DNA of 64,000 bases from Capsaspora owczarzaki ATCC 30864 (Eukaryota > Opisthokonta > Filasterea): contig NW_011887292.1 of assembly GCF_000151315.2 (NCBI RefSeq), forward strand, positions 124,001 through 188,000, in the 5' to 3' direction. The translations under genes were made by a program, and so were the position numbers. The notes under the pieces were generated by a model, which saw nothing but the letters and a program-made list of their open reading frames with translations, had not been told where the DNA came from and did not search any database. Positions 4,423 to 64,000 of the stretch are shown in pieces. The number at the start of each line of letters is the position of its first letter. The first letter of the stretch is position 1.

Positions 4423-4515
4423 CGAATAATGTTTATGTATTAACAAAATAATAAAATGGAGGACTGAGAACACATCAAAGGAAACCCCCTTTGTTGTCGT
4501 CCGGTCAAAAATCCA

Positions 4516-6460: not shown

Positions 6461-6744
6461 AAACAAAGGCACGACTGAGCAGCTCTCCGAAACAGACAAA
6501 ACAAAAAGTTCACTCCACTCCACTCACAAAGCCGAGCATCTCCAAAGCGTCGCAACTGCTCAGTGATCAGGGAAACGAAAGACCTGAACTTTTACTGAGC
6601 ACCGCGACGATGAGACGCTGCTGCTCTGCTACTCGTGCTTTGTAACGAGGGCTGCGAGGGAGGGTGTTTCTGTGTGTAGTTGGAGTTCAGTCTGAGAATA
6701 TCATCGGCTCAGTCTTCCTATTTTTGGTTTGACATTTTCGCTTC

Positions 6745-34457: not shown

Positions 34458-37400
34458 ATGATGTCCCAACGCCCGAGACGGTCGTCCGCCTCGTCATGGT
34501 TGTGCCTCGTCTTGGCGACGCTCATGGCAAGCGCTCTCATCCCCAGGATGGGAATTCAACCCGCAGAGGCCGCCTTCTCATGCACTTCTCCCGATCAAGT
34601 CATATCAACCGGCTTGACGAATGGGCACAATGTCGCGTACACTGTCGCCTTTGCTTCATCCCGCGTTACCGGCATTGCTGCGAACTGCAACCTTGCTTCT
34701 CAAAGCTGGTACTGGCTCCAATTCACCGTCCCCGGCCCTCTCTTGACAGTCACCCTTTCCCTGGTACCAAGCGACGGCGCAACACCCGGTGTCAGCGACA
34801 CGTACCTCATCTTGTATCGGGACAGTTGTGACACACAGCTCGCATGCAACGATGACGCTGCCAGCACTTACTACTCGCGAATTGAAATCCCCTTGGGCGC
34901 GGGCACCTATCGTCTTGCCATTGGCCAGTATTCGACTTCCTCGGCAGGCACTACCTCCAGCGCCAGGATTGTGGTCAAGGCCACCAACAGCTTGTGCAAC
35001 TCGTGCTCCACCTGCCTGTCGCAAACCTGGGCCTGGTTTCCCCCGTACCCAAAGCCGCAGATCTCGTACAACACTGGCTTGACCACGACGGCGAATTCTT
35101 ACACGCTCTACCAAACCACATTCTTGCCGATTGTCGCCCCGGACGATGGCGAGATTTTCATCTCGACCTGTGCTACAGATGGCGTGGTTTGGAGCTCGTC
35201 CGCCCTCGATACGATTGTGGCTGCCTACACGAGTTGCAGCTCAGTCTTGACCGTCATCGATGACAACTGCAACTCTCGTCAAACCCAACTGAGATTCGAT
35301 GTCACCCGCGACCAGCGCTTGAATGTCGCGGTCGGACTCTACCCCTCGGCTTCGTCCGCAGTAACCTCCCAGATTGTCATGACATTTACGTGTAAGGCCG
35401 GCAAGTACGACGATGACAACAATCAAAACACAATGTGCGCTACCTGCCCTGGCATCACGGGCTGCACCTCCTCCATCACGTGCACCACCAACAACAACAT
35501 GCAGTGCACCAGCTGCGACACTGGGCGCTACTTGCTGGAGGGTACGCTTGATAGTTGTCCATTCTGCACAAACAACATTGCTGGTTGCCTGTCCGTGACG
35601 TGCACAACGTCCACGGATCAAGTGTGCACATCGTGCAGTTCCGGCTACTGGCTGAACGGCGGAACCTGCACCCCATGCACAAGCGTCACCTACTGCACGT
35701 CGGCACTGACATGCACCTCGGCGACCACGTCGCAGTGCACGTCGTGCGATGCCAACCACTACGTTTCTCCGGGCACGGCGGTGACTTGCGCAGCGTGCAC
35801 GAGCATTTCGAACTGCGGCTCGCTGCCGACGTGCACCAGTGCGTCGAATTCGCGCTGTCCAGGATGCTCGGGTGGCTTTTACCGCTCTGCCGGCACCTCG
35901 AGCGACACGTGTCCCGCATGCACTCCCATCAGCAACTGCGGCAATGGCCTGACCTGCTCCACCGCCTCCAACAGTCGCTGCGCGTTGTGCTCGACCGGCT
36001 ACTATAACACGGCCGGGTCGGCCACTTCTGCCGACACTTGCAATCTGTGCACGAGCGTTTCCAACTGTGCCGTGACGCCAACATGCTCTGCCGCGAGCGC
36101 GAGCACGTGCGGCAGTTGCACCAACGGATACTATCGCACCGCCGGGCCACCCGATTCGTGCACCATCTGCCCCTCCGTGTCGCAGTGCACATCTGCTGTT
36201 TCGTGCGCCTCTGCAGTCACTTCCCAATGCTCTGCGTGCCAGAGTGGCTACTATTTACTCAAGGGTGCGGCCGACACATGCCCATTGTGCACCCAAATTT
36301 CCAACTGCCTTTCGGTCGAAACATGCTCTTCATCCGCCGATTCGCGCTGCCTCTCTTGCGCGGCCGGCTACTGGCGCAATGCAGGCACAACCAAAGACAC
36401 ATGTGACACTTGCAACCCCGTCAGCAACTGCCAACCCTCGTCCGTCACCTGCTCCACCAGCACGAATTCTGTCTGCGGAACCTGTCTCAGCGGATATTGG
36501 CTCACCTCTGCGTTAGCATGCCAGCAATGCTCAGACGTGTTGCACTGCACCTCCTCCATCACTTGCTCTTCCGCGACCAACTCTCAGTGCACAGGCTGCG
36601 CGGCAGGCTACTTCCTGGTCGACGGCACGGCCGACACTTGCCAGCAATGCTCTGCTGTGCCCAACTGTGCCGGGAGCCTGAGTTGCACCTCCTCGTCCAA
36701 TTCCCGTTGCTCTGGCTGCGCGGCTGGCTTCTATCTGGTGGTTGGAACGACCACCAGCATGGATCAGTGCTTGCCCTGCCAGAGTGTTTCTGGCTGTGCT
36801 ACATCGCCGATTACCTGCACCAGCTCTTCGACTTCTCAATGCGGCTCGTGCGTCGCCGGCCGTTACCTGCTGGACGGAACGGCCGATACTTGTCCGACCT
36901 GCGGGACAGTCGCCAACTGCGTTGGCTCGTCTGTGACCTGTACCACGAGCTCGAACTCTGTCTGCGGTGCCTGTGACAGCGGGTTTTGGCTTGCGTCGCC
37001 AACGGAATGTCGCGCGTGCACGAGCATTGGACAGTGCACCTCAGCACTGACCTGCTCGACCGCACTCAATTCGCAATGCATCAGCTGCACTTCGGGATAC
37101 TACCTTTCCGATGGCTCGGCCGACACCTGCCCTCTCTGCGCCACGGTCGCCAATTGCGCCGCTTCCACCACCTGCACGACTGCAAACGATGCACGCTGCC
37201 CCAGCTGTGCATCAGGGTATTATCTCAGTGCTGGCGCAACGACGACGGCAGACACTTGCTTGCAGTGCCCCGCCATTGCCAACTGCCTGTCTCCCGTCAT
37301 CACTTGCACAAATGCTGGCACGTCTCAGTGCGCGCAGTGCGCAGCAGGCACGTATCTTGTTGACGGCAGCGCTGATTCGTGCGCCACATGCTCCCCTGTG

Positions 37401-40400: not shown

Positions 40401-43400
40401 GACATTTGCCAGAGTTGCAGCATCGTGCCTGGTTGCACCTCTTCCCTCACGTGCGTGTCGAGCACATCTTCTCAGTGCTCCTCTTGCCTGTCTGGCCTGT
40501 ATCTTGTCGATAACGCAAGCCCGCTCGCAGACAGTTGCAACACTTGCCCGGGAGTACAAAATTGCACCGTTCCTGTCACTTGCACTTCGGCCTCCACACC
40601 GCAGTGCACGGCTTGCGCGCCGAGCACTTACCTTGAGGACCAGCCCTCCACTGGATCTGATTCATGCATTGGCTGCAACACCGTGGACTACTGCACTGGC
40701 AGCCTGTCGTGCACCTCTGCCAGCACTTCTCAATGCACAGAGTGTGCGGCCGGCCACTATCTGGTCGATGGGACGTCGGACACGTGTCAAACTTGTCCCG
40801 CCATTCTGAATTGCGCGGCCCCCACCACTTGCAGCAGTGCCGTCGCAGTGCGCTGCTCGGCATGTACTGCTGGCTACTTTAAGACTGCAGGCGATGCAAC
40901 TTCGCCGGATCAATGCACACCATGCACGGCCGTGTCTGGCTGCTTGTCCGCCTTGACGTGCACGTCTGCGTCGTCATCGCAATGCACGTCTTGCAGCAGC
41001 GGCTTGTTCCTCGTCAATAATGCTAGTCCCGTGGCAGATGTGTGCTCAACGTGCGCAAGCGTCGCGCAATGCAGCTCTGGGCTGACGTGCGTTTCGAGCA
41101 CGAGTTCTCAATGCACCAGCTGCAATACTGGCTACTTTCTTGTTGATCGCACGTCTCCGACTGCCGACCTCTGTCAGCAGTGTACTGCTGTGGCGCATTG
41201 CTCGGGCCAAGTCACTTGCACTACCGCTTCCAACTCTGTGTGCTCCACTTGCGGTGCCGGCTTTTATCTGAGCGGAGGAAATTGCGTGCCTTGTGCTGGA
41301 ATTGCCGGCTGCAGTGATAGCGTTGTGCAGTGCACCTCGGCGACCAACTCGCGATGTGTCGCCTGCGACGCCGGCTTGTATCGCGCCGGAGGCACTGTTT
41401 CCACTCCCGATGTTTGCCAAGCTTGCAATGCAGTGTCTGGGTGCACGTCCTCTCTCACGTGCACGTCATCGTCTGACTCGCAATGCACTTCCTGCACTGC
41501 AGGGCGCTATCTTCAAGACGTGACGTCGCCAAACGCCGACTCTTGCCCAGCATGTCCGTCCATCTCAAACTGCACCTCCACGCCCGTCACGTGCTCCTCA
41601 GACTCCACTTCGCGATGCACAACGTGCGCATCTGGCACCTATCGGTCCATTGGCGGAGGTTCGTCGCCGGATCTCTGCTCGGCTTGCTCCAGCATTGTCG
41701 GCTGCCAGTCGGCCTTGACTTGCGCCGACGCGTCCAGTTCGCAGTGCACGTCTTGCCGCTCCGGGCGTTACTTGGTCGAAGGAGCGCAAGACACGTGTCC
41801 GAGATGTACAACCATTCCTTCCTGCACGGGCTCTGTTACCTGCTCTTCAGCTGCCGACTCGCGTTGCGATGCGTGTGCTGCCGGCACCTACCTCCTTCAG
41901 GGCGACAGCACTCACGCAGATCAATGCGTGTCTTGCCCGAGCGTCGTCGGATGCTCTGGGTCTGTCACCTGCTCGAGCGCAGTCACCTCTCGATGCACGG
42001 CTTGCACATCTGGCTTGTACTTGGTCTCGGGAACAACCACCCAGCCCGATACTTGCAACTCGTGCACCCCTGTCACCAACTGTGCGTCAGCCTTGACGTG
42101 CATTTCTGCTGGTTCTTCTCAATGCACCTCCTGCAATGCAGGCTCTTTTCTGGTCGACCTGGCTTCGCCAAGCGCAGACTTGTGCACCACATGCGACACT
42201 GTTCCATTCTGCAGTGGTTCTGTCACGTGCACCAGCACGGCGAATGAGCAGTGCACTGCGTGCGTTTCAGGGCATTATCTGCTTGAAGGAACTCAGGACT
42301 CGTGCCCCCCTTGCAGCGCCGTCGCCGGTTGCGCCTCCGCCCCAACCTGCACGTCTGATGTAGATTCTCGTTGCACCACCTGCCAGCCCGGTCGCTACCA
42401 CGCTACTGGAGGTACTGGCGTTGCTGATTCCTGCCCAACATGCTCGAGCATTGTGAACTGCACATCCTCCTTGACCTGCACGACGAGCGGCGACTCTGTC
42501 TGCACGGCTTGCGCCGTGGGTACCTACCGCTCCGCCGGTGTGGTCGGATCGCTGGCTGATTCGTGCACCAACTGCCCTGGCATTGGTGGCTGCACGGGTG
42601 TGCTGTCTTGCACGGCTGTCGGCAATTCTCAGTGCAGTCAGTGCGTTTCTGGCACCTACCTGGTCGATGGCGCGCAAGATTCGTGCGCGACGTGTCTTTC
42701 AATTTCGTCGTGCACTGGAACTGTCACGTGCGATTCGGCATCCACCTCTCGATGCAGTGCCTGCGCGGCTGGAACATACCGGGTTGCTGGTACCGGCTCG
42801 ACGCCCGATCAATGCGTTGCCTGCCCTGCGATCGCTGGCTGCTCTGGCTCTGTTACTTGCGCGAGCTCAACCACATCTCGTTGCTCATCGTGCCAGTCTG
42901 GCTTGTACCTGACACCTGGCGGCTCGTCGGCAGACTTGTGCTCAACCTGTACTCCGATTTCCGGTTGCACATCTGGCGTGACCTGCATCTCGTCCAGCAG
43001 CTCGCAATGCACCGCATGCGCGACTGGCAAGTTCCTCGTGGACAACGCCTCGCCATCTGCAGACTTGTGCTCCGACTGCACGGCCATCGCCCAGTGCAAT
43101 GGCGCCTTGTCGTGCTCCTCTTCGAGCAATTCGCAGTGCACGGCCTGCAGCGCTGGTTATTGGCTGCAAGACGGAACTCAAGACTCTTGCGTGGCCTGCA
43201 CTGCGGTTTCAGGCTGCACCTCTTCGCTGACTTGCACTTCTGCCACCAGCTCCCAATGCACGACTTGCGTCAGCGGCACATACCTCAATGACAATGCGTT
43301 GCCTGCGGCTGATACGTGCAACACTTGCACGCCCGTTCAAAACTGCAGTTCCGCCCTGAGCTGTTCAAGCGGAATCGACTCTGTTTGTTCAACTTGCGAT

Positions 43401-46400: not shown

Positions 46401-49400
46401 AGCTCAACCACATCTCGTTGCTCATCGTGCCAGTCTGGCTTGTACCTGACACCTGGCGGCTCGTCGGCAGACTTGTGCTCAACCTGTACTCCGATTTCTG
46501 GCTGCACATCTGGCGTGACCTGCATCTCGTCCAGCAGCTCGCAATGCACCGCATGCGCGACTGGCAAGTTCCTCGTGGACAACGCCTCGCCATCTGCAGA
46601 CTTGTGCTCCGACTGCACGGCCATCACGAATTGCACTGGTTCTACCACGTGCACGAATCCAGGATCATCGCAATGCGATGAATGCAGCAGCGGATTTTGG
46701 CTTCAGAATGGCCCAGTGGATGCATGCATCGCTTGTACCCCTGTGGCCTCATGCGTGTCGCAGTTGTCCTGCACCAGTACATCGAGCTCTCAGTGCGACA
46801 CTTGCACTCCAGGGTTTTACCTGGTGGATAACGCTGCACCTGCTGCAGATCTGTGTGCTGCTTGCACCGACATTGCAAACTGCTCTGCGACTGAAACATG
46901 CGTCTCAGCCTCCTCTTCCCAATGCACCGCGTGCAACGCCGGGTCATTTTTGATGGATAACACTTCGCCCGTCGCGGATTCATGCGTCACTTGTTCGCCT
47001 GTTTCTGGCTGTTCCTCCAGCATCACTTGCGTCTCATCATCGAGCTCGCAGTGTACCGTGTGCGCGAGTGGAACATTCCTGGTGGACCATGCGTCGCCAG
47101 TCGCAGATACCTGTCAAGCCTGCTCGACCATCTCGCAGTGCTCCTCACCTGTCACGTGCGCATCTGCCAGTTCGTCACAATGCAGCGCGTGCGCTCCAGG
47201 CTTCTACTTGCACCACGATGTCGCCGACCAATGCTTGCCTTGCACGGGCATTGTGGGCTGCACTGGCTCGCTGACGTGCACGTCGGCGTCTGACTCGCGT
47301 TGCACGTCGTGCACGGATGGATTGTACCTTGCACCCGCCGTCAGTCCCGCGTTCCCCGATACTTGTGCTCCCTGCCCGGCTGTCACTGGCTGCTCGTCAT
47401 CCTTGACTTGCACCTCGAGCAACAGCTCGCAATGCACATCATGCGGTTCCGGTAGCTATCTGCTTGATCAAGCCGCCCCGCAGGCCGACACGTGCCCGCA
47501 GTGCACCCCAATCGCCAACTGTTCTTCGGCGTTATCGTGCACATCCGCAAGCAACTCGCAATGTACAACATGCCTCTCTGGCTCGTACCTTATTGACAAC
47601 CCCGTTGGTGTCGCCGACATTTGCAAGACATGCACCCCAGTTGCGCATTGCACTGGCAGCGTTAGTTGCACAAGCGCGTCCGATTCGGCTTGCTCGAGCT
47701 GCGGCGCTGGCTTTTACCAAGGCCCGAGCAGCACCTGCTTGCCCTGCACAGCCGTCTCCAGCTGCACCTCTGCGCTCACTTGCACTACATCAACGGATTC
47801 ACGCTGCACTTCTTGCACAGCTGGATTGTACCGAGTGACTGGTGCGGCGGGCGTCGCAGATACGTGCGCACCCTGCCCTCCTGTGACTGGTTGCACTTCG
47901 TCCCTGGTCTGCTCGACTCAGTTCGATTCGCAGTGTTCGTCTTGCGCAGCTGGCCGGTATTTGGTTGACCACACTTCTCCACAGGCTGACAGCTGCCCTC
48001 TTTGCGCCAGTGTCGGTCAGTGTGTCTCCGACCTCACATGCGACTCTGCGTCCTCCAGCAGATGCAGCGAATGCACGACTGGCTTTTATCTCTCACCTGG
48101 CTCGGCAGCAACACCGGACATGTGCAACCCGTGCACACCGATTGTGAACTGCACGTCGGCGGTCGCTTGCACCACAGGCGCGAGCTCACGGTGCACATCG
48201 TGTACCGCAGGGACATGGCTTGTCCCGAGCGGATCTGAAGCTCAACCGGATACTTGCCAGCTGTGTCCCGACATTGTCGGCTGCGTCTCTGCCGAGACTT
48301 GTTTGTCTGCAAGCACATCTCGGTGCACCAATTGCGTCGAAGGGACTTACCGCATCGGTGGTTCCGGGTCCACGCCCGACTCGTGCCAGAGCTGCACACC
48401 GGTGGCTGGTTGCACGTCGGCGCTGACCTGCTCTACAAGCGGCAATTCGCAGTGCACAGCTTGTGCCAGCGGAACCTTCCTTGAACATGGGGTCGCTGGG
48501 GCTCCCGATGTGTGCTCGCCCTGCACGGCAGTGCCAAGCTGTACCTCATCACTCACCTGCACGTCAAGCACTACGTCACAGTGCACGTCGTGCGCGCCTG
48601 GGTTCTGGCTGCAAGATGGCGCCAAGGATACCTGCGTGGCGTGCACTGCTCTGTCCGGATGCACCTCTGCGCTCGCTTGCTCTTCCGCAACCAGCTCGCA
48701 ATGCTCTTCGTGCGCAGCGGGAACCTTCCTCGTGGACAATGCTTCTCCGACCGCTGACTCGTGCGCGACCTGCACATCTGTGACTGGATGCACATCGTCA
48801 TTGACGTGCACCAGCAGCGGTGATTCGGCTTGCACCACCTGCGCTGTCGGAACCTTCCGCGCGGCTGGTGTCGTTGGCAGCACCGCAGACACGTGCGCGG
48901 CCTGCACGCCCGTTGCTGGATGCAATGGTGTGCTGTCTTGCACCACCGCAAGTGATTCGAAATGCACGTCGTGCGTGGCTGGACTGTTTTTGAATGCTGG
49001 TGTGCAAGACCGGTGCACCAGCTGCACGGTGGTTGATGGCTGCACATCGTCGTTGACATGCTCGACTGCCGACAATTCGCAGTGCACGTCCTGCACGCCT
49101 GGTCGGTTCCTTGTTGAAGGCACCGTGGACATGTGCCAAGCTTGCACGTCGGTTGTCGGTTGCAATGGCGCGCTGACCTGCACCTCTTCGCAAAACACGC
49201 GTTGCTCGTCCTGCCAGAGCGGAACATGGCTGAACACTGGCGGTGCAACGTCCCTTGATGTTTGCGTTGGATGCAGCCCCGTTGGAAACTGCACCTCCTC
49301 GCTGACATGCGGCTCTGCGACTTCGTCGCAGTGCACCACGTGCGCAGCAGGAACCTACTTGAACGATCAAATCGCACCACTTGCGGATGACTGCGTTGGT

Positions 49401-52400
49401 TGCACGCCCGTTTCACACTGCGCCGGTGCCATCACTTGCACTGGCGCGGGCAACGCGCAGTGCGCGTCCTGCGCATCTGGCTACTACCGCGCCGCTGGTT
49501 CTCCTGATCAGTGCTTGCCTTGCGTCTCCGTGACTGGCTGCGCTGTTGATTTGACTTGCGCGACCAGCAGCGAATCTCGATGCACCACTTGCCAGCCCGG
49601 CCGCTACCGCGCTGCTGGCGGTGCTGGTGTTGCTGATTCCTGCCCAACATGCTCGAGCATTGTGAACTGCACATCCTCCTTGACCTGCACGACGAGCGGC
49701 GACTCTGTCTGCACGGCTTGTGCCGTGGGTACCTACCGCTCCGCCGGTGTGGTCGGATCGCTGGCTGATTCGTGCACCAACTGCCCTGGCATTGGTGGCT
49801 GCACGGGTGTGCTGTCTTGCACGGCTGTCGGCAATTCTCAGTGCAGCCAGTGCGTTTCTGGCACCTACCTGGTCGATGGCGCACAAGATTCGTGCGCGAC
49901 GTGTCTTTCGATTTCGTCGTGCACTGGAACTGTCACGTGCGACTCGGCATCCACCTCTCGATGCAGTGCCTGCGCGGCTGGAACATACCGGGTTGCTGGT
50001 ACCGGCTCGACGCCCGATCAATGCGTTGCCTGCCCTGCGATCGCTGGCTGCTCTGGCTCTGTTACTTGCGCGAGCTCAACCACATCTCGTTGCTCATCGT
50101 GCCAGTCTGGCTTGTACCTGACACCTGGCGGCTCGTCGGCAGACTTGTGCTCAACTTGTACTCCGATTTCCGGTTGCACATCTGGCGTGACCTGCATCTC
50201 GTCCAGCAGCTCGCAATGCACCGCATGCGCGATTGGCAAGTTCCTCGTGGACAACGCCTCGCCATCTGCTGACTTGTGCTCCGACTGCACGGCCATCGCC
50301 CAGTGCAACGGCGCCTTGTCGTGCTCCTCTTCGAGCAATTCGCAGTGCACGGCCTGCAGCGCTGGTTACTGGCTGCAAGACGGAACTCAAGACTCTTGCG
50401 TGGCCTGCACTGCGGTTTCAGGCTGCACCTCTTCGCTGACTTGCACCTCTGCCACCAGCTCCCAATGCACGACTTGCGTCAGTGGCACATACCTCAATGA
50501 CAATGCGTCACCTGCGGCTGACACGTGCAACTCTTGTTCACCGGTGCTGGGCTGTGCAAGCTCGCTTTCTTGCTCGACCAGCTTTGACTCTGTTTGTACT
50601 GCATGCTCGGCCGGCACCTACCGCGTCGTTGGCGCTCCCGGCGCGACGGCCGATACGTGTCAAACCTGTCCGGTTGTTTCCCACTGCGCCGGGCAAACCA
50701 CTTGTACGGACTCGACTACGTCTCAGTGTGCAGCTTGCAGCGCGGGCTTTTACCTTGTCAATGGAGTTCAAGACCAATGCCAGTCCTGTTCCGCCGTTGC
50801 CGGCTGCTCTGTTACCGTCACTTGCACCGGCACCTCGGATTCGCAATGCGCGACTTGTGACACTGGCCGGTTTTTGGTGGACGGCGTCCAAGACGTCTGC
50901 TCGCCCTGCACGACAGTCCCTCAATGCAGTGGCAGCTTGACATGCACCTCGCCCACGACATCTCGTTGCTCGGCATGCACGGCGGGCTACTGGCTGAGTG
51001 CTGGTTCTGCCGGCGCGGCGGACTCTTGTGTGGTGTGCCCTGGTATTGTCGACTGCATTTCGCCGATTACCTGCGTCTCCAGCACTTCCTCGCAATGCAC
51101 AACCTGCCGCTCGTCCACCTTCTTGCAGGACAATGCCTCACCGACACCCGACGTGTGCCAAGGCTGCCCGTCCATCGATGGCTGCACAGGCACTCTGTCG
51201 TGTGGCCAGACTGCCGGTACAACGCAGTGCTCGAACTGTGCCGTCGGACGGTACCTTCAGGAAGGCGTCGAGGACGCGTGCCCTGCTTGCACTCCGATTG
51301 CCGGGTGTGAGGCGGTTCCGAGCTGTACGTCGTCGTCCAACTCGCGCTGCTCCCGTTGTTACGACGGTCAGTATCATGTCAGTGGCACTGTCGGCTCTGC
51401 AGATCAATGCCCCACGTGTGCGCCGGTTGCCAATTGCAGCGTCCCAGTCACCTGCACCACTGGCGGAGACTCTACTTGTATCACGTGCAATCTCGGCTCC
51501 CGCCGCGTTCCAGGCGTTGTGGGAGCGTCGCCCGATTCATGCACCACTTGCGCACCTGTGGACAAGTGCGCTTCGGCCGTGTCGTGCACAACGGCATTTG
51601 ACTCGCAGTGCACAGCTTGCCAGGCTGGATATTACCTGGCGGAGGGCACGGCAGACCACTGTCAGACGTGCATGGCCATCCCAGGCTGTGCGTCCAGCGT
51701 GGTGTGCGACTCGCCCTCGACATCGCGATGTGCCGCTTGCGCTGTGGGCTACTATTTGCAAACTGGAACTTCCTCGACCCCAGATCAGTGCGTGCCCTGC
51801 TCTTCAGTCGCCTCCTGCTCATCCCAGGTGACCTGCTCATCGGCGACATCTTCTCAGTGTACATCGTGCTCTTCGGGCTACTACCTGGTCGACAACGCAG
51901 CGCCGAATGCTGACACTTGTGTTGCCTGCCCCAGCGTCGCCAGTTGCACGTCTGCTGTCACCTGTACGAGCGCCACAAGCTCACAGTGCACGACTTGCGC
52001 GGCGGGTTTGTATCTTCAGGACAATAGCCCGCCGCTTGCGGACGTCTGCAACTCGTGCACGGCAGTGGCCGACTGCGCCTCTTCTCTGACCTGCAGCAGC
52101 TCCAGCACCTCGCAGTGCTCTTTCTGCGCAGACGGCTTTTGGTTGCAAGACGGAGCTGTAGACAGTTGTGTTGCATGTTCTCCTGTTGCAGGCTGCACGT
52201 CCAGCCTGTCGTGCTCGTCCTCGAGTTCCTCGCAATGCTCTCTGTGCGCACCTGGTCGCTACCTGCGCGACAACATCTCCCCAACGGCAGATACCTGTCC
52301 CTTCTGCACGCCTGTCGGCAATTGCACTACGTCCATTACTTGTACCTCTGCGGCGGACTCTGTCTGCACAACTTGTGCACCCGGCACGTTCAGAGCGGTC

Positions 52401-55400
52401 GGCGCGGTTGGAGTGACGCCAGACACTTGCCAAGCCTGCTCCCCGATCGCCTCTTGCAGCGGGGCCATCACGTGTACCTCAAGTGGCGATTCGCAGTGTT
52501 CGTCGTGCGCTGCTGGCTTCTGGCTGAACGAGGCGGGCACCCATGATGTTTGTGTCGCTTGCACTCCCGTCTCTGGCTGCACAACGGGTAGCACCTGCAC
52601 GACAAGCCTCGACTCGCGATGCAACAGTTGCGCTCCAGGCTTTTACCTGATGACTGGATCGGCCGGCGCACCAGACTCGTGTTCTCCTTGCACGGGAGTG
52701 CCGGGATGTGCGGGCAACCTGACCTGCACCTCGGCTTCCAACTCGCGCTGCTCGTTGTGCGCTCCTACCACCTTCTTGTCCGTCGGAACGAGTTCCACCC
52801 TTGACACTTGCACCTCGTGCAGCTCAATCGTCAATTGCACCTCGAGCATTGCCTGCGTCTCGCTCGGAAGCTCGCAATGCACCTCTTGCAACGACGGATT
52901 CTACCTGATGGACAACGCCTCCCCTGCTCAAGACGTGTGCGCCAGCTGTCCCGCCATTCCCAACTGCGCCACCAGTGTCCAGTGCACTTCGGCAGTTGCC
53001 GCTCGTTGCTCTGTCTGCCGTGCAGGATACTATTTAAGCAACGGTGGTCCTGGAGTGTCCGACTCGTGCGTCGCGTGCACAGGGGTTGCCAACTGCTCTT
53101 CTGCAATCACGTGCACATCGGCCGTGGACTCGCGCTGCTCTGCCTGCGCCTCGTCCCGCTATCTGAGCCAAGGCGGTCCCGGCGTGGCCGACTCTTGCCC
53201 CGCGTGTGCGTCCATCGCATCGTGCGCAGGCCAAACGAGCTGCACTGCTTCCAGCAACTCCCGCTGTTCGATTTGCGCGGCTGGAACTTGGCTTTCGACC
53301 GGTTCAGCCAGCACATCCGATACCTGCGTGGCCTGCGCGAGCATTGTCAATTGCACCGCCACCCCGTCGTGCTCGAATTCGACCAACTCTCACTGCTCCA
53401 GCTGTGTTGTCGGAACCTTCTTGCAACCCGGCACGGGCTCGAGCCCAGACACCTGCCAGCCTTGCCGAAGCGTTGCGTCGTGCAGTGGAGTCCTGTCATG
53501 CACATCCACGTTGGACTCGCAATGCTCTGCGTGTCAGCAGGGCCTCTTTTTGCTCGATGGAGTGCAAGATCAGTGCGTGAGCTGCAGTCCAATCACGGAC
53601 TGCATTTCCAACATTACATGCACGTCTGCGACAACCTCGCAGTGCACCAGCTGTCTGGCAGCGCACTATCTCAGGAACGACGTGCAGGACGCATGCCCGA
53701 CCTGCTCGCCGATCGATGGATGCACCTCGTCGCTCGTCTGCACAACCAGCTCCGACTCTCGATGCACCTCGTGCAGCGCAGGACGCTATCTCGCTCCAGG
53801 CAGTACCGGCGTGAGTGATCTTTGTCCAACTTGCGAGCCGGTTGCAAACTGCACGTCCCCTCTTGTTTGCGACAGCGCAAGCACCTCTCGATGCGCCGCT
53901 TGTGCGATTGGCACGTTCTTGGTTCCTGGCGGTGTTGGCGTGCCCGACACGTGCGCAACTTGTTCGCCCATTGCCGGATGCGCAGTTCCCATCACATGCT
54001 CCTCCGCTTCCGACTCGCGATGCACAAATTGCTTTGCTGGAAGCTACCGCGCGCCAGGGACGGTCGGGGTCATGGATTCATGCCCGTCGTGCACGCCCGT
54101 GGTGGGTTGCAACTCGTCCATTCAGTGCAGTGGTCCGTCCAACTCGCAGTGCTCCTCCTGTGTGGCTGGTCGGTACCTTCTCGATGTCGGCTCTATGGGA
54201 GCTGACACGTGTCCCACTTGTTTGGGCGTGACCGGCTGCACAAGTCCTCTGACTTGCACGTCCAGTGCTGACTCGCAATGCCAAACATGTGCTTCGGGCA
54301 TGTATCTCCAGGATGGTGTGGTGGATGCCTGCTTCAACTGCACGAGCATCACAGGCTGCTCTGTTCCGTTGACGTGCACCAACAGTGGCAATTCCCAGTG
54401 CGCGCAATGTGCGGCACAACGTTTCTTGGTGGATGGCGTGGCAGACACTTGCCAGTCATGCGCCTCCAACTGCTCGCGAGGCTCATACGAGTCTGTTCCG
54501 TGCTCGTCGACCACCAACCGCCAGTGCTCGCCGTGCGCTGCAGTCCCGGGCTGCTCTACCTTTGTGACATGCTCGTCTCCTTCGGATGCAATCTGCGCGA
54601 CCTGCTCGTCCACCCAGTACTTCAATGGCGCTGCTTGCACCGCATGCACAACATGCAACCCTGCAACAGAGTACGTCGTTCGTGCTTGTAGCGACAGCCT
54701 GAATGCTGTTTGTGGAACGTGCGACGCCGAGTGCTCGGGCGGCTGCACTGGTGCCGGCCCGTCTGCTTGTGTTGCCTGCCGCCACTATCAGCTGGACGGC
54801 GCATGTGTTGCGTCATGCCCGGCAGACTACTATGCGCCGACCGCCAGCGGCGTCTGCACTCGTTGCACCACCTGCCCCGCTGGCCAGTACGCTTCCACCT
54901 CCTGCTCTGCCACATCCGACACGATTTGTTCGGCATGTCCCGGCCTGCCCAACTGCAATAGCACCGAGTGCACCAGTCCAGCTTCGGTCAAGTGTTCTCG
55001 ATGCAACGCGCAATTCCGCCTCCTCTCGCCGACCTCTTGCGGTGCCTGCTCGTCGGGATGCCCAAGCGGCTCGTTCGCCTCCACCGCATGTTCGCAGACC
55101 ACTAGCCAAGATCGTGTTTGCTCTGCGTGCACTCCGATCAGCTCGTGTGTGTCGGGTGCACTCACCTGCTCCTCAGCGCAAAACTCGCAGTGCAGCAGCT
55201 GCACGCCTGGCTCATACCGTGTTCCGGGCATCCCTGACTCTTGTGCGCTTTGCTCCGACTCTTGTCCTGCCGGATCCTTCCAGTCCACGGCTTGCAGCTC
55301 CAGTGGCACGTCCGATCGTGTTTGCACGGCATGCACGCCCATCAGCAACTGCACCTCTGGCGGCGTGACCTGCTCGACCTCGGTCAACAGCCGCTGCTCG

Positions 55401-56600
55401 CAGTGCGTGGCTGGAACCTTCAAGCAAAGTCTCACCAGCGACACCTGTTCTTCTTGTCTGGCATCCTGCCCCGATGGCACGTACGAGGCAGCCGGTTGCT
55501 CGATCACCAACAACCGTCTCTGTCTGTCCTGCCCGTCTATTACCAACTGCGCCTTCACGTCGTGCACCAACTCGTTCAGTCGGCAGTGTCGCACGTGTCG
55601 CTCGGGATTTTACCGCATTCCTGCCGCCGGTTCCACTATGGACAGCTGCGCCGCGTGTCTTTCTTGTGACGTCGGCCAGTACGTCGCGACCCCTTGCGGT
55701 GGCGTCAACGGCACGACCGATACAGTGTGCCGCGACTGCCTGACCATTCCGAACTGTCAGTCCTCGTCGTGTGTCAGTGGCTCTGCGGGAGGCACGATCT
55801 GCTCCGAGTGCAGCTCCGGGTATTACCTCGCAGCAGACGGCCGCTCTTGTGTCCGGTGCTCGCCCGTCAGCCCATGCGCCAGCAATCTTTTCACCTGCTC
55901 GACCGCGAACGATACCATTTGTGTGCGAAGCGATGACTCTGGCTCGGACTTTTTGAGCAACACGTCGCAGGCCGTGCCTGTCATTGTGTTCTCGGTCCTG
56001 ATTCTGCTGGCGATTGTCGTGATGGTGGTGCATGCCTACCGACGCCGCCAGCGAAGCCAAATGGCTCCCATCGTGTCAGATCGGCCAGACAGCGTCATTG
56101 GCTCCATGTCGAATGACAGCGTCCAAGTTGCCGCCAAGCCGCCTCATCGCTCCAAGTCCCCGGCGAAGGCTGAATCGGACTATGTTTCCTATCCCTCAAC
56201 CTCCGGCGCCTCCTCATCGTCAGCTGCCACCGCGGGTACCTTTGCTCGCAACAGCACGCTCGCACGCAACAGCAGCATGAAGCAGCTGAAGCGCATTTCG
56301 ATGCAAGAGTCCAAGCGCTCCAGCTGGAATGACATTATCGCTCCTGCGCCGACCATTTCCAACTACAGCAATCCTCTTGCTGCCGTCCACATGTCCGAGA
56401 CGCGCGGTAATGAGATGCTCACAAACGCCGAAACGCTGCATACACTGGCAGCGCTGGCGGATGACACTGCAGATGCGATTGCCGCCGAGGAAGCCCAGGA
56501 AGGCCAAGACGTCCAGACCGACGTTGCCGAGGGTGATTCTGAAGCCCCGCGCGGCCGCACTGCGCATAAATGGGCTCGTACGCGCAGCATTTACGTTTGA
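34458..56600 (+). CDS. Giant single-pass membrane protein with about 150 six-cysteine repeats
   Basis: One 22,143-nt exon, about 7,380 residues, no intron. Start set at MMSQRPRRSS (34458; 34461 possible) because the following WLCLVLATLMASALIP is a signal peptide. Residues to about 330 look like two PPC-like beta-sandwich domains: WYWLQFTVPGPLLTVTLSL with YLILYRDSCDTQLACNDD, then FISTCATDG with DTIVAAYTSCSS and DDNC. From about residue 340 come roughly 150 units of about 42-48 residues, pattern C-x2-C-T-x2-(S)-x-C-(TSSL)-T-C-(TSSS)-S-Q-C-T-S-C-x2-G-(Y/F)-(Y/W)-L, then a variable loop to the next Cys. The last units (after about 54450) are TNFR/furin-like. A TM helix VPVIVFSVLILLAIVVMVVH (about 55973-56035) is followed by YRRRQR and a tail of about 185 residues rich in Ser. 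The repeats recall protist CxxC surface proteins and EGF/TNFR-like modules, but no named family fits. Likely a cell-surface adhesion or receptor stalk (inference). Confidence 0.9.
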   Translation: MMSQRPRRSSASSWLCLVLATLMASALIPRMGIQPAEAAFSCTSPDQVISTGLTNGHNVAYTVAFASSRVTGIAANCNLASQSWYWLQFTVPGPLLTVTLSLVPSDGATPGVSDTYLILYRDSCDTQLACNDDAASTYYSRIEIPLGAGTYRLAIGQYSTSSAGTTSSARIVVKATNSLCNSCSTCLSQTWAWFPPYPKPQISYNTGLTTTANSYTLYQTTFLPIVAPDDGEIFISTCATDGVVWSSSALDTIVAAYTSCSSVLTVIDDNCNSRQTQLRFDVTRDQRLNVAVGLYPSASSAVTSQIVMTFTCKAGKYDDDNNQNTMCATCPGITGCTSSITCTTNNNMQCTSCDTGRYLLEGTLDSCPFCTNNIAGCLSVTCTTSTDQVCTSCSSGYWLNGGTCTPCTSVTYCTSALTCTSATTSQCTSCDANHYVSPGTAVTCAACTSISNCGSLPTCTSASNSRCPGCSGGFYRSAGTSSDTCPACTPISNCGNGLTCSTASNSRCALCSTGYYNTAGSATSADTCNLCTSVSNCAVTPTCSAASASTCGSCTNGYYRTAGPPDSCTICPSVSQCTSAVSCASAVTSQCSACQSGYYLLKGAADTCPLCTQISNCLSVETCSSSADSRCLSCAAGYWRNAGTTKDTCDTCNPVSNCQPSSVTCSTSTNSVCGTCLSGYWLTSALACQQCSDVLHCTSSITCSSATNSQCTGCAAGYFLVDGTADTCQQCSAVPNCAGSLSCTSSSNSRCSGCAAGFYLVVGTTTSMDQCLPCQSVSGCATSPITCTSSSTSQCGSCVAGRYLLDGTADTCPTCGTVANCVGSSVTCTTSSNSVCGACDSGFWLASPTECRACTSIGQCTSALTCSTALNSQCISCTSGYYLSDGSADTCPLCATVANCAASTTCTTANDARCPSCASGYYLSAGATTTADTCLQCPAIANCLSPVITCTNAGTSQCAQCAAGTYLVDGSADSCATCSPVANCVAGTITCTSSSNSVCGTCNSGYYLSAGACVICPGISSCSSAVTCTSASTSQCTECLPGYRLVEGTQDSCPACGSIQYCNFGSVTCTTASDSRCASCYSGTYLSVGTSSTPDRCLNCPPISGCSGSVTCASASSARCSACASGRYFQPGAVTTPTSSDTCPPCTPVSDCFSSLTCTAIDNSQCTSCTAGHYLIDNSPSVADLCQVCAPVSSCSSSLTCTSGGNSQCTLCDAGYYLLDGSPDTCPSCSPITSCVPGTTTCTTSSTSRCGTCSSGTFLNVGTPTTADSCSTCTPVTNCAVAATCSSSTTSRCATCRAGFYKLVGASSDTCVPCASVASCTSDLTCTSPTDSQCTSCSAGYYLVEGVADTCASCAPITSCTAGTVTCASSTTSRCGLCASGFYFVAGTSSSPDQCVVCPAVSGCSAPVTCASSSTSRCSACSAGTYFSAGGASSPDQCLACAAVSGCTSSLTCSSATSSQCTSCSVGKFLVDNASPVADTCHDCSTVDSCVAGQLSCTSSSDSQCASCQSGSWLQDGVQDACVACTAVSNCLSALTCTSALTSQCTGCNSGYFLLDNPSTVADVCQACDSVVGCTSSLTCTSATTSQCSSCASGRFLIDKPTNQADVCQTCASVDQCTSSLQCTSPTSSQCTSCQSGYFLADNAAPTADTCQGCTPVLQCSSALTCTSSSTSQCTTCNAGFYLSEVGIADTCEPCSAVSNCASSPTCSSSTSSQCTSCQSGTFLVDNAPPTADVCQTCPTINQCTSAITCTSSSTSQCTLCAAGTYLMNDVQDSCPTCPSVASCVGSVTCDSASTSRCSACAAGTYLVAGTGSTPDQCVACPVIAGCSGSVTCSSSTTSRCSLCQSGLYLTPGGGASPDVCSSCTPIADCTSGVTCISASSSQCTACAIGKFLVDNASPSADLCQSCTAIAQCHGVLSCSTASNSQCTACSAGFWLHEGAQDACQPCSDITGCTSALTCTTAGDSQCSTCASGRYLVDGIADICQSCSIVPGCTSSLTCVSSTSSQCSSCLSGLYLVDNASPLADSCNTCPGVQNCTVPVTCTSASTPQCTACAPSTYLEDQPSTGSDSCIGCNTVDYCTGSLSCTSASTSQCTECAAGHYLVDGTSDTCQTCPAILNCAAPTTCSSAVAVRCSACTAGYFKTAGDATSPDQCTPCTAVSGCLSALTCTSASSSQCTSCSSGLFLVNNASPVADVCSTCASVAQCSSGLTCVSSTSSQCTSCNTGYFLVDRTSPTADLCQQCTAVAHCSGQVTCTTASNSVCSTCGAGFYLSGGNCVPCAGIAGCSDSVVQCTSATNSRCVACDAGLYRAGGTVSTPDVCQACNAVSGCTSSLTCTSSSDSQCTSCTAGRYLQDVTSPNADSCPACPSISNCTSTPVTCSSDSTSRCTTCASGTYRSIGGGSSPDLCSACSSIVGCQSALTCADASSSQCTSCRSGRYLVEGAQDTCPRCTTIPSCTGSVTCSSAADSRCDACAAGTYLLQGDSTHADQCVSCPSVVGCSGSVTCSSAVTSRCTACTSGLYLVSGTTTQPDTCNSCTPVTNCASALTCISAGSSQCTSCNAGSFLVDLASPSADLCTTCDTVPFCSGSVTCTSTANEQCTACVSGHYLLEGTQDSCPPCSAVAGCASAPTCTSDVDSRCTTCQPGRYHATGGTGVADSCPTCSSIVNCTSSLTCTTSGDSVCTACAVGTYRSAGVVGSLADSCTNCPGIGGCTGVLSCTAVGNSQCSQCVSGTYLVDGAQDSCATCLSISSCTGTVTCDSASTSRCSACAAGTYRVAGTGSTPDQCVACPAIAGCSGSVTCASSTTSRCSSCQSGLYLTPGGSSADLCSTCTPISGCTSGVTCISSSSSQCTACATGKFLVDNASPSADLCSDCTAIAQCNGALSCSSSSNSQCTACSAGYWLQDGTQDSCVACTAVSGCTSSLTCTSATSSQCTTCVSGTYLNDNALPAADTCNTCTPVQNCSSALSCSSGIDSVCSTCDSGTYRSVGIVGSVADRCLRCTSISGCTSPVTCSSSADSQCVSCASGLFLSDGTQDQCSPCTSIVGCAVPLTCTTSLNSQCSSCSPGRRRQLGGSAADTCPVCTPILNCDGSLLCTTASDSRCSACASAYWLSVGSAGVSDSCVACTSVSQCTSSLTCVSSSSSQCASCATGFFLQDATSPAQDSCGTCAAVSNCIGTISCTSAANSRCSGCETGYWLQNGVKDTCVACTAVSGCASSLSCSSATTSRCAACNPGQYLQVGGAGTPDACPTCSSVPDCIGSTTCTTSSDSVCSSCASGTYRVPGAVGVAADSCTACLPVSGCNSALTCVSATTSQCSSCSAGRYLVDAEQDVCQLCPSVPSCTGSITCSSSSNSRCSECAPGTYRVAGSGSTADQCVSCPGIVGCPGSITCSNSTTSRCSACAPGRFLSVGISGQPDTCPTCTSVPGCLSAITCASSSSSQCTSCQTGTFLLDNAAPVADVCQSCTLVGNCTSTLTCSSSSTSQCTSCAPGFWLQDGAKDTCVACTALPGCTSALTCSSATSSQCSSCAAGTFLVDNASPTADSCATCTSVTGCTSSLTCTSSGDSACTTCAVGTFRAAGVVGSTADTCAACTPVAGCNGVLSCTTASDSKCTSCVAGLFLNAGVQDRCTSCTVVDGCTSSLTCSTADNSQCTSCTPGRFLVEGTVDMCQACTSVVGCNGALTCTSSQNTRCSSCQSGTWLNTGGATSLDVCVGCSPVGNCTSSLTCGSATSSQCTTCAAGTYLNDQIAPLADDCVGCTPVSHCAGAITCTGAGNAQCASCASGYYRAAGSPDQCLPCVSVTGCAVDLTCATSSESRCTTCQPGRYRAAGGAGVADSCPTCSSIVNCTSSLTCTTSGDSVCTACAVGTYRSAGVVGSLADSCTNCPGIGGCTGVLSCTAVGNSQCSQCVSGTYLVDGAQDSCATCLSISSCTGTVTCDSASTSRCSACAAGTYRVAGTGSTPDQCVACPAIAGCSGSVTCASSTTSRCSSCQSGLYLTPGGSSADLCSTCTPISGCTSGVTCISSSSSQCTACATGKFLVDNASPSADLCSDCTAITNCTGSTTCTNPGSSQCDECSSGFWLQNGPVDACIACTPVASCVSQLSCTSTSSSQCDTCTPGFYLVDNAAPAADLCAACTDIANCSATETCVSASSSQCTACNAGSFLMDNTSPVADSCVTCSPVSGCSSSITCVSSSSSQCTVCASGTFLVDHASPVADTCQACSTISQCSSPVTCASASSSQCSACAPGFYLHHDVADQCLPCTGIVGCTGSLTCTSASDSRCTSCTDGLYLAPAVSPAFPDTCAPCPAVTGCSSSLTCTSSNSSQCTSCGSGSYLLDQAAPQADTCPQCTPIANCSSALSCTSASNSQCTTCLSGSYLIDNPVGVADICKTCTPVAHCTGSVSCTSASDSACSSCGAGFYQGPSSTCLPCTAVSSCTSALTCTTSTDSRCTSCTAGLYRVTGAAGVADTCAPCPPVTGCTSSLVCSTQFDSQCSSCAAGRYLVDHTSPQADSCPLCASVGQCVSDLTCDSASSSRCSECTTGFYLSPGSAATPDMCNPCTPIVNCTSAVACTTGASSRCTSCTAGTWLVPSGSEAQPDTCQLCPDIVGCVSAETCLSASTSRCTNCVEGTYRIGGSGSTPDSCQSCTPVAGCTSALTCSTSGNSQCTACASGTFLEHGVAGAPDVCSPCTAVPSCTSSLTCTSSTTSQCTSCAPGFWLQDGAKDTCVACTALSGCTSALACSSATSSQCSSCAAGTFLVDNASPTADSCATCTSVTGCTSSLTCTSSGDSACTTCAVGTFRAAGVVGSTADTCAACTPVAGCNGVLSCTTASDSKCTSCVAGLFLNAGVQDRCTSCTVVDGCTSSLTCSTADNSQCTSCTPGRFLVEGTVDMCQACTSVVGCNGALTCTSSQNTRCSSCQSGTWLNTGGATSLDVCVGCSPVGNCTSSLTCGSATSSQCTTCAAGTYLNDQIAPLADDCVGCTPVSHCAGAITCTGAGNAQCASCASGYYRAAGSPDQCLPCVSVTGCAVDLTCATSSESRCTTCQPGRYRAAGGAGVADSCPTCSSIVNCTSSLTCTTSGDSVCTACAVGTYRSAGVVGSLADSCTNCPGIGGCTGVLSCTAVGNSQCSQCVSGTYLVDGAQDSCATCLSISSCTGTVTCDSASTSRCSACAAGTYRVAGTGSTPDQCVACPAIAGCSGSVTCASSTTSRCSSCQSGLYLTPGGSSADLCSTCTPISGCTSGVTCISSSSSQCTACAIGKFLVDNASPSADLCSDCTAIAQCNGALSCSSSSNSQCTACSAGYWLQDGTQDSCVACTAVSGCTSSLTCTSATSSQCTTCVSGTYLNDNASPAADTCNSCSPVLGCASSLSCSTSFDSVCTACSAGTYRVVGAPGATADTCQTCPVVSHCAGQTTCTDSTTSQCAACSAGFYLVNGVQDQCQSCSAVAGCSVTVTCTGTSDSQCATCDTGRFLVDGVQDVCSPCTTVPQCSGSLTCTSPTTSRCSACTAGYWLSAGSAGAADSCVVCPGIVDCISPITCVSSTSSQCTTCRSSTFLQDNASPTPDVCQGCPSIDGCTGTLSCGQTAGTTQCSNCAVGRYLQEGVEDACPACTPIAGCEAVPSCTSSSNSRCSRCYDGQYHVSGTVGSADQCPTCAPVANCSVPVTCTTGGDSTCITCNLGSRRVPGVVGASPDSCTTCAPVDKCASAVSCTTAFDSQCTACQAGYYLAEGTADHCQTCMAIPGCASSVVCDSPSTSRCAACAVGYYLQTGTSSTPDQCVPCSSVASCSSQVTCSSATSSQCTSCSSGYYLVDNAAPNADTCVACPSVASCTSAVTCTSATSSQCTTCAAGLYLQDNSPPLADVCNSCTAVADCASSLTCSSSSTSQCSFCADGFWLQDGAVDSCVACSPVAGCTSSLSCSSSSSSQCSLCAPGRYLRDNISPTADTCPFCTPVGNCTTSITCTSAADSVCTTCAPGTFRAVGAVGVTPDTCQACSPIASCSGAITCTSSGDSQCSSCAAGFWLNEAGTHDVCVACTPVSGCTTGSTCTTSLDSRCNSCAPGFYLMTGSAGAPDSCSPCTGVPGCAGNLTCTSASNSRCSLCAPTTFLSVGTSSTLDTCTSCSSIVNCTSSIACVSLGSSQCTSCNDGFYLMDNASPAQDVCASCPAIPNCATSVQCTSAVAARCSVCRAGYYLSNGGPGVSDSCVACTGVANCSSAITCTSAVDSRCSACASSRYLSQGGPGVADSCPACASIASCAGQTSCTASSNSRCSICAAGTWLSTGSASTSDTCVACASIVNCTATPSCSNSTNSHCSSCVVGTFLQPGTGSSPDTCQPCRSVASCSGVLSCTSTLDSQCSACQQGLFLLDGVQDQCVSCSPITDCISNITCTSATTSQCTSCLAAHYLRNDVQDACPTCSPIDGCTSSLVCTTSSDSRCTSCSAGRYLAPGSTGVSDLCPTCEPVANCTSPLVCDSASTSRCAACAIGTFLVPGGVGVPDTCATCSPIAGCAVPITCSSASDSRCTNCFAGSYRAPGTVGVMDSCPSCTPVVGCNSSIQCSGPSNSQCSSCVAGRYLLDVGSMGADTCPTCLGVTGCTSPLTCTSSADSQCQTCASGMYLQDGVVDACFNCTSITGCSVPLTCTNSGNSQCAQCAAQRFLVDGVADTCQSCASNCSRGSYESVPCSSTTNRQCSPCAAVPGCSTFVTCSSPSDAICATCSSTQYFNGAACTACTTCNPATEYVVRACSDSLNAVCGTCDAECSGGCTGAGPSACVACRHYQLDGACVASCPADYYAPTASGVCTRCTTCPAGQYASTSCSATSDTICSACPGLPNCNSTECTSPASVKCSRCNAQFRLLSPTSCGACSSGCPSGSFASTACSQTTSQDRVCSACTPISSCVSGALTCSSAQNSQCSSCTPGSYRVPGIPDSCALCSDSCPAGSFQSTACSSSGTSDRVCTACTPISNCTSGGVTCSTSVNSRCSQCVAGTFKQSLTSDTCSSCLASCPDGTYEAAGCSITNNRLCLSCPSITNCAFTSCTNSFSRQCRTCRSGFYRIPAAGSTMDSCAACLSCDVGQYVATPCGGVNGTTDTVCRDCLTIPNCQSSSCVSGSAGGTICSECSSGYYLAADGRSCVRCSPVSPCASNLFTCSTANDTICVRSDDSGSDFLSNTSQAVPVIVFSVLILLAIVVMVVHAYRRRQRSQMAPIVSDRPDSVIGSMSNDSVQVAAKPPHRSKSPAKAESDYVSYPSTSGASSSSAATAGTFARNSTLARNSSMKQLKRISMQESKRSSWNDIIAPAPTISNYSNPLAAVHMSETRGNEMLTNAETLHTLAALADDTADAIAAEEAQEGQDVQTDVAEGDSEAPRGRTAHKWARTRSIYV
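42421..43324 (+). repeat. Internal near-identical block A of the giant gene
   Basis: About 900 bp. Its first 668 bp match 45958-46625 (offset 3,537) with only a few differences. The whole block matches 49630-50533 (offset 7,209). The sequence codes for about 20 cysteine half-units and keeps the reading frame in every copy. Confidence 0.88.
44901..46625 (+). repeat. Internal near-identical block B, copy 1
   Basis: 1,725 bp (575 codons) repeated at 48573-50297 with an offset of 3,672 bp. Flanks differ abruptly on both sides (44900/48572 and 46626/50298). Only scattered substitutions were noticed on reading, for example at 44999/48671 region and near 46500/50170. Confidence 0.9.
48573..50297 (+). 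repeat. Internal near-identical block B, copy 2
   Basis: Second copy of 44901-46625. Downstream of 50297 it continues to match block A (43089-43324), not copy 1, so the junction is a mosaic of the two earlier copies. Confidence 0.9.
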
Positions 56601-63800: not shown

Positions 63801-64000
63801 GAAGGTAGTGCTGGACGGCGCTGCCGAGCCAAGCGTCGAGCTGTCGCGTTTCAGTGCGCCAGTCAAGACGTCAGAGATTTCCATGCTCGAAAACCGTGAG
63901 GATGCCGAGCTGTTGGCGATCCCACCACTGCTGCTTGGAGCCAGCGGCGAGCCGTGGCTGGAGGTGGGTGCAATGCGCGACATTTCAACATCGAGATCGG
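60859..64000 (-). CDS. Protein with two DUF547 domains, 5' end possibly outside window
   Basis: Exons at least 63983-62431, 62314-61978 and 61809-60859 (946 residues from the ATG at 63983). The frame stays open from that ATG to the window edge (DLDVE before Met), so the gene may begin further right. Introns are 116 and 168 nt and in phase. Residues about 1-290 are Ser-rich and mostly disordered. DUF547 module 1: CFWLNLHHLLVLHAHVVNG, VYKYIVAGMPFSLEDI, DPRVHFAISY. A short linker crosses intron 1 (LHQV to YISTSLG). Module 2: AFWLNVHNLLALHLCVMH, YKYCISGLDFSLRDI, RVHFGLTMYARGMPRL. The FW-N-HN-L--H pattern and a later RVHF stretch are the family's signature. DUF547 occurs in plants, protists and bacteria; its biochemical role is unknown to me. 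The C-terminus is Pro/Ser-rich. A tandem arrangement in one protein is clear. Confidence 0.87.

Follow-up and report, generated by a model that had tools for sequence, protein, structure and literature searches.

Animal members of the TNFR superfamily carry a few cysteine-rich domains (CRDs) each, and many of them have no death domain. A Gly at C1+3 and an aromatic residue at C1+5 (counted from the first cysteine of the unit) are a hallmark of these CRDs. Giardia VSPs are Cys-rich CxxC surface proteins with one transmembrane helix. In the unicellular Monosiga brevicollis, the receptor tyrosine kinase RTKB2 is described as having a Cys-rich domain that resembles that of the TNF receptor, in company with kinase, hyalin, SCR, and EGF domains (PMC3584944). 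The mastigoneme protein Mst1 is described as forming polymers on algal cilia (PMC11015965, PMC10846610). For Capsaspora owczarzaki, one published account states that homologues of TLRs, IL-1 receptors, and TNFRs are all missing (PMC8677719).

The locus examined here lies in a 64-kb window (the whole stretch of Capsaspora DNA that was analysed) and encodes a single protein of 7,380 amino acids, referred to below as the giant. Like members of the TNFR superfamily, the giant has the layout of a type I receptor with six-Cys CRDs, Gly at C1+3, and an aromatic residue at C1+5, and near the membrane it holds canonical TNFR_c6 units over the Pfam cut-off. It differs from them in that C4 is shifted in its main units (x5/x5 rather than x2-3/x9-10), in that four slices of its main array, each scanned whole, receive no Pfam assignment, in its unit number of ~160, and in its extra N-terminal domains. 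RTKB2 shares with it the TNF receptor-like Cys-rich domain in a unicellular organism but bears a kinase and the other domains listed above, whereas Mst1, which surfaces in two PDB profile searches made with the giant's repeats, is a ciliary polymer. Identity with a Giardia-type VSP was ruled out, the VSP family PF03302 giving only stray matches in 2 of 18 two-unit rows (best E 0.06) and 1 of 58 four-unit rows (E 0.091). A group of smaller CRD receptors in Capsaspora itself (e.g. C13:199541, C11:732460, and C7:868760) has the same order of parts, an N-domain corresponding to the giant's second, CRDs of both types described below, a single transmembrane helix, and an ectodomain in one frame, whereas the giant has 162 CRDs, an extra N-terminal domain, no kinase, and a tyrosine-poor tail. 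From this architecture, the giant is read here, with about an even chance of being right, as a type I long-reach tether or adhesion receptor that would be a kinase-less member of the RTK-ectodomain family of Capsaspora. Neither the giant nor a Capsaspora family of TNFR-type receptors appeared among the matches listed in a literature search of titles and abstract openings, although the 2013 genome paper and the 2012 kinase survey may describe them.

Extent and coding potential of the open frame

The frame of the giant, read from the sequence, runs on the + strand from 34458 (ATG) to 56600 (TGA) and comprises 7,380 codons plus the stop, with zero internal stops and 995 encoded cysteines; the original prediction of one long open frame for roughly 7,400 residues was therefore accurate. 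A stop-free run of this length has a log10 P of about -88 on base composition alone, which rules out a chance ORF as the explanation of the 22-kb frame. Third-position GC content (GC3) is 0.656, compared with 0.636-0.678 in five neighbouring frames. Selection was gauged from dN/dS in 3,520 same-length pairs drawn from the 149 repeat units of the main array, pairs that are not independent of one another. The values range from 0.08 to 0.29, being 0.08 at an identity of at least 0.95 (24 pairs), 0.24 at 0.85-0.95 (4 pairs), 0.29 at 0.75-0.85 (7 pairs), 0.15 at 0.65-0.75 (26 pairs), and 0.17 in the remaining 3,459 pairs, which are saturated. The giant frame is under purifying selection, and a pseudogene is ruled out by these ratios together with the third-position bias of the differences between duplicated blocks (see below).

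Capsaspora genes are reported to contain 3.5 introns per kb of CDS (PMC5560861), a density at which ~77 introns would be expected in the giant frame. The gene of 22,143 nt had been called intronless; the frame is indeed open throughout, and from DNA alone the term is to be understood as meaning an open frame only. The ectodomain also lies within one open frame in 11 relatives (ten loci and the relative on contig C4), and because every one of these 11 shows the same arrangement, the single-frame ectodomain looks like a family trait. Rfam and tRNA scans returned nothing informative.

Composition and growth of the repeat array

The main array (35391-54449, + strand), delimited by cysteine spacing and a regex, consists of 149 contiguous units with a shifted C4 (S type) that follow the pattern C1-x10..19-C2-x2-C3-x5(6)-C4-x4..6-C5-x7(8)-C6-x2. 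All six cysteines are kept in 149 of 149 units, and several other positions are nearly as constant, with Gly at C1+3 in 95%, Tyr, Phe, or Trp at C1+5 in 98%, Asp at C2-2 in 95%, and Ser at C5+6 in 92%. The array is followed by a membrane-proximal mixed region (54450-55922, + strand) where canonical TNFR_c6 CRDs (T type, seven by regex) stand among units of the S type. This region matches PF00020 with 62.8 bits in 6 stretches (cut-off 29.4), and another membrane-proximal slice matches it with 56.2 bits in 7 stretches. Counted by regex across the whole protein, there are 162 CRDs, namely 155 S units with shifted C4 and 7 canonical T units. The figure of about 150 disulfide-rich units given in the original prediction agrees with the 149 contiguous units, the whole-protein count being somewhat higher.

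Three stretches of the array are mutual copies that are 97-99% identical over 0.7-1.7 kb. Block A (42408-43337, + strand) differs from 49617-50546 at 24 of 930 nt, and its part at 42408-43097 differs from 45945-46634 at 11 of 690 nt. Block B (44898-46637, + strand) has 21 mismatches in 1,740 nt to 48570-50309. Block C (48570-50546, + strand) is a mosaic of the other two, being B-like at 48570-50309 and, where the match to B ends, A-like to 50546. The offsets between the duplicated blocks are 28, 29, and 57 units, and third codon positions account for 14 of 21, 8 of 11, and 19 of 24 differences in the three near-identical block pairs. The bulk of the array is diverged, same-length unit pairs having a mean nucleotide identity of 51%. 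The array grew via in-frame duplication of multi-unit blocks, and the pattern of the blocks looks like the outcome of recombination between them.

Relationship of the repeat units to TNFR-type CRDs

To compare the two unit types, one profile was built from the S units of the giant (155, duplicates removed) and another from the T units of the family (42, seven of them from the giant, duplicates removed). The two profiles align over columns 1-40 of 41 with an hhalign probability of 94.9% (P 4.4e-8), compared with 0.9% for reversed S units, and both types occur together in 6 of the 10 relatives counted. Because the S profile aligns to the family's own T profile, we interpret the S unit as a CRD of TNFR type whose fourth cysteine has moved by about three residues.

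In four slices of the main array that were scanned whole (aa 1-1200, 1201-2600, 4001-5400, and 353-1166), Pfam found no match, aa 2601-4000 and 5401-6600 being left out of the whole-slice scans. In a set of four-unit rows (A2) that covers 58 of 73 windows, the 15 omitted windows coming from the near-identical blocks and their surroundings (45540-51098), TNFR_c6 was matched by 2 of 58 rows (best E 0.039) and PF07699 (Ephrin_rec_like) by 13 of 58 at E ≤0.1 (best 6.5e-6); PF07699 was not assigned in any of the slices of the giant that were scanned whole.

Profile searches against PDB were made with 18 hand-picked two-unit rows, two of which come from the membrane-proximal region (A1), with the same rows without those two (A7), and with the rows of A1 reversed as a control (A6). 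With A1, 24 of 28 matches were TNFR-superfamily chains, among them the herpesvirus entry mediator, which we take to be a member of that superfamily; the top match was a chain named ELR1 (E 2.1e-5), and the best TNFR-named match had an E of 2.8e-4. With A7, TNFR chains made up 7 of 9 matches (best E 0.004), and the reversed control had none among 8, its best and unrelated match having an E of 0.0067. A7 scores no stronger than the reversed control, and only the names of the matches differ. The 8 matches to A2 were headed by CONSTANS zinc fingers (E 0.0063) and included four TNFR10B/DR5 chains at 0.42-0.93, so this search gives TNFR kinship no support. For the main array taken alone, direct support for kinship to the TNFR is weak; the case for it rests on the comparison of S and T profiles within the family and on the membrane-proximal Pfam matches.

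N-terminal domains, transmembrane helix, and tail

The giant begins with a putative signal peptide, judged by eye from its basic n-region and hydrophobic core (aa 1-38, 34458-34571, + strand). The following domain 1 (aa 39-182, 34572-35003, + strand) is DVUA0089/FDP-like, matching NCBIfam NF038127 with 35.4 bits (cut-off 29, E 1.3e-8); its match to an N-domain profile of nine smaller relatives reaches an hhalign probability of 14.9%, with 0.8% for the reversed sequence and ≤1.9% in 20 shuffles. Domain 2 (aa 199-315, 35052-35402, + strand), the final residues of which overlap the first CRD, is kin to the N-domain of these nine relatives, the corresponding values being 94.3% (E 9.7e-8), 0.1%, and ≤2.3%. 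Aligned to each other, the two domains reach an hhalign probability of only 0.9%, which leaves a pair of N-terminal domains of one kind unsupported, and Pfam, PPC included, gave no match to either of them up to E 10 with HMMER filters on. Of the two PPC-like domains that had been proposed, what stands is that domain 1 exceeds the DVUA0089/FDP cut-off and that domain 2 matches the N-domain of the relatives by profile; the absence of a Pfam match in both and their mutual dissimilarity do not fit the proposal.

Plain sequence searches were less sensitive to this relationship. The first 333 residues of the giant matched only themselves in their own genome at E 0.001, and the N-domain of the contig C13 relative, used as a query, did not find the giant up to E 10; in a search among ten proteins, aa 1-330 of the giant matched the contig C12 relative at E 1.2e-6. 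Because domain 2 fits the profile of the relatives and domain 1 barely does, the N-terminus of the giant seems to have one domain more than the N-domain of the family. The first 1,200 residues, searched against PDB, returned nothing informative.

Hydropathy predicts one transmembrane helix at aa 7168-7195 (55959-56042, + strand), where the peak of 3.29 is the sole candidate beyond residue 30 and a basic stretch follows, and a cytoplasmic tail of 185 aa (7196-7380, 56043-56597, + strand), both in accordance with the original prediction. A receptor or adhesin layout had also been predicted, and the succession of signal peptide, N-terminal domains, CRDs, one transmembrane helix, and tail conforms to it. 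The tail has 4 tyrosines and ends in RSIYV, which we take to resemble a class II PDZ ligand. Pfam found neither the kinase PF07714 nor, at E up to 0.1, a death domain in the tail, the latter result ruling out death-receptor signalling. At 2.2 tyrosines per 100 aa, this tail is the poorest of the 11 compared, the ten relatives having 2.9-7.0. Matches between the giant and three relatives cross the transmembrane helix and end ~46-66 residues into the tail, which by this comparison is poorly conserved.

Related receptors in the Capsaspora genome

Homology searches covered the genome of Capsaspora, PDB, and family models, and relatives were found through own-genome searches with a stretch of the repeat and with PF00020. 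In this genome, one of two GAPDH qPCR primers published for C. owczarzaki (PMC9170242) matches once and the other lies 512 bp from it in convergent orientation, and the 25-residue CoSrc2 N-terminus (PMC6001378) is found at 100% identity. The published 90-nt coYki homology arm gave no match, nor did a 33-nt piece of it at up to 2 mismatches; on balance, the source is very probably C. owczarzaki. At least 12 smaller related loci exist in the genome, making at least 13 with the giant, each with an N-domain and CRDs, and 12 of 13 have a transmembrane helix and tail in frame. Ten relatives were read directly, and a search with the N-domain of the contig C13 relative confirmed two more, on contigs C4 and C10, that had already come up in the earlier searches. 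That query found ten loci besides its own; the contig C7 relative was absent, and only the profile comparison links its N-domain to the others (hhalign 83.4%; reversed 0.5%; 20 shuffles ≤4.0%). Transmembrane helices were assigned by hydropathy in ten relatives and by eye in the contig C4 relative. In a regex census of ten of the twelve relatives, CRD number ranged from 1 to 13, compared with 162 in the giant. TNFR_c6 CRDs over the Pfam cut-off are also present in several of the smaller receptors, including kinase-bearing ones.

In two relatives the frame itself encodes a tyrosine kinase (157.1 bits each to PF07714, over profile positions 2-169 of 258), and two others have kinase exons beside the frame, on contigs C7 (frame 868149-868796) and C10 (1177786-1178566), which would be joined by splicing. 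The family loci with a tyrosine-kinase exon, whether inside the frame or next to it, thus number four; for the remaining eight relatives, no kinase is close by among the matches listed of 154. When the giant was divided into 22 consecutive segments, the kinase-bearing C7 gene was the best match, among ten relatives, for 19 of them.

The giant has the traits of this group, with the N-domain recognised in domain 2 by profile and six-Cys CRDs followed by one transmembrane helix and a tail. The original prediction knew of no named protein with such a layout and suggested an undescribed family. The number of units, the missing kinase, and the tyrosine-poor tail are indeed unusual, but the giant is one of at least 13 grouped loci, four of them with a kinase exon, and profile comparison relates its units to the TNFR_c6-type units of the family.

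Three further observations concern the relatives. The ectodomains of C13:199541-202486 and C5:57173-59665 are 95-100% identical in DNA over ~1.8 kb and unrelated beyond, near the transmembrane helix, one gene having a tyrosine kinase and the other a tyrosine-rich tail. This pair reads as a case of recent ectodomain shuffling or gene conversion, and because of it the family appears to place one ectodomain on both kinase and non-kinase tails. At C10:1175532-1178566, the frame stops after a few CRDs and before any transmembrane helix, with kinase exons ~1.3 kb downstream, and this member reads as either split by an intron or broken. A kinase fragment from the contig C13 relative has at least 39 full-length or nearly full-length matches (itself included) at 80-100% identity and at least 1 partial match at 89%; so many similar copies suggest that the receptor kinases radiated recently.

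Proposed function of the giant

The architecture of the giant is computed, and from it we infer all of the steps that lead from anatomy to function. Each CRD would retain TNFR-style disulfides, and the units would stack end to end. TNFR structures extend 2.5-3 nm per CRD, and at this length per unit the array would form a stalk of roughly 0.4-0.5 micrometre. Such a stalk would hold the N-terminal domains, which are presumed to bind ligand, far past ordinary receptors, and the giant would tether or adhere to another cell, to matrix, or to prey while anchored through its tail. It could also share ligands with its kinase-bearing relatives or be phosphorylated by them. A tether is favoured over a docking receptor because of the tyrosine-poor tail, in which the low tyrosine density would suit anchoring rather than docking, the RSIYV end, and the length of the array. 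An RGD-type adhesin was ruled out, RGD, KGD, and NGR motifs being missing from the giant protein; LDV occurs three times. Capsaspora is described as having long filopodia, and its aggregates as consisting of cells separated by extracellular matrix (PMC3870316).

Two other roles would make different use of the same parts. The giant may be a signalling co-receptor that is clustered by ligand and phosphorylated on its tail by the related RTKs to recruit SH2 proteins, its length being incidental. Seven kinase-less relatives with tyrosine-dense tails (3.7-7.0 per 100 aa) speak for this, one of them having an ectodomain in common with a kinase-bearing twin, but the giant's own 4 tyrosines in 185 aa place it at the bottom of the 11 tails, and we regard the co-receptor as unlikely. 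Equally improbable in our estimation is a structural role in a coat or in matrix, the giant being an acidic, Ser/Thr-rich, and probably glycosylated brush that would cover the cell or be shed into the matrix of the aggregates and would have no specific ligand. The composition of the ectodomain (Ser+Thr 31%, pI 4.1, and 45 N-glycosylation sequons) is what such a brush might have, and matrix is present in the aggregates (PMC3870316). A transmembrane helix with a basic stretch behind it and an N-terminal domain common to receptors argue against a coat, and six cysteines in all 149 main units would go beyond what a brush appears to need.

Other explanations question the gene model itself. It is barely credible that the giant is an RTK with a kinase spliced on from a downstream exon, as might be proposed from the contig C7 relative, the frame of which stops just ahead of a kinase exon that is presumably joined by splicing. 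The tail of the giant closes with its own stop and contains no kinase, none was found at C1:180600-188000 among the matches listed of 154, and the next frame on the + strand, of EST1 type, begins 300 bp after the giant; this candidate was dropped. It is also very unlikely that the array is an assembly product, its repeats inflated by misassembly, or that the gene is a decaying relic. Blocks of 0.7-1.7 kb at 97-99% identity, with block C a mosaic, do mark a spot where assemblers can fail. Against this stand 22 kb without a stop, an N count of zero in the 64-kb window, and an array that is mostly diverged, and plain misassembly is made less likely by the block differences being mostly synonymous. 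Misassembly could shift the unit count by a few dozen but would probably not change the nature of the gene.

The tether reading can be joined to the history of the family in a broader proposal, which we consider possible but doubtful: that a TNFR-type CRD module existed before animals and served kinase receptors, co-receptors, and the giant, that the giant is a sub-micrometre adhesin that sets distance, and that the length of its array is changing. If this were true, one TNFR-type module would be shared by kinase receptors, tyrosine-tailed co-receptors, and a single giant tether, which would fix how far Capsaspora cells stand from one another or from prey, and, with array length still shifting through block recombination, reach may vary from strain to strain. 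Independently of this proposal, TNFR_c6-type CRDs over the Pfam cut-off in Capsaspora receptors bear on the origin of the TNFR ectodomain. The giant is surprising in degree and also for having TNFR-type modules in an organism where TNFR homologues were said to be missing. It would be a testable instance of a receptor that has become a very long tether, and the species concerned, a relative of animals, is described as forming aggregates and as amenable to transfection and editing (PMC6001378, PMC9170242).

Neighbouring frames in the window

The EST1-type frame next to the giant contains two short arrays, one of the hexamer TGGGGC at 57028-57096 and one of GAC/GAG type, coding for Asp and Glu, at 57371-57430. 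Two adjoining frames on the - strand (60859-62355 and 62427-63983) both encode DUF547. A single frame at 17998-20283, also on the - strand, encodes an SH3, two WW, and a PH domain, a layout that we take to be that of ARHGAP12/27-type proteins.
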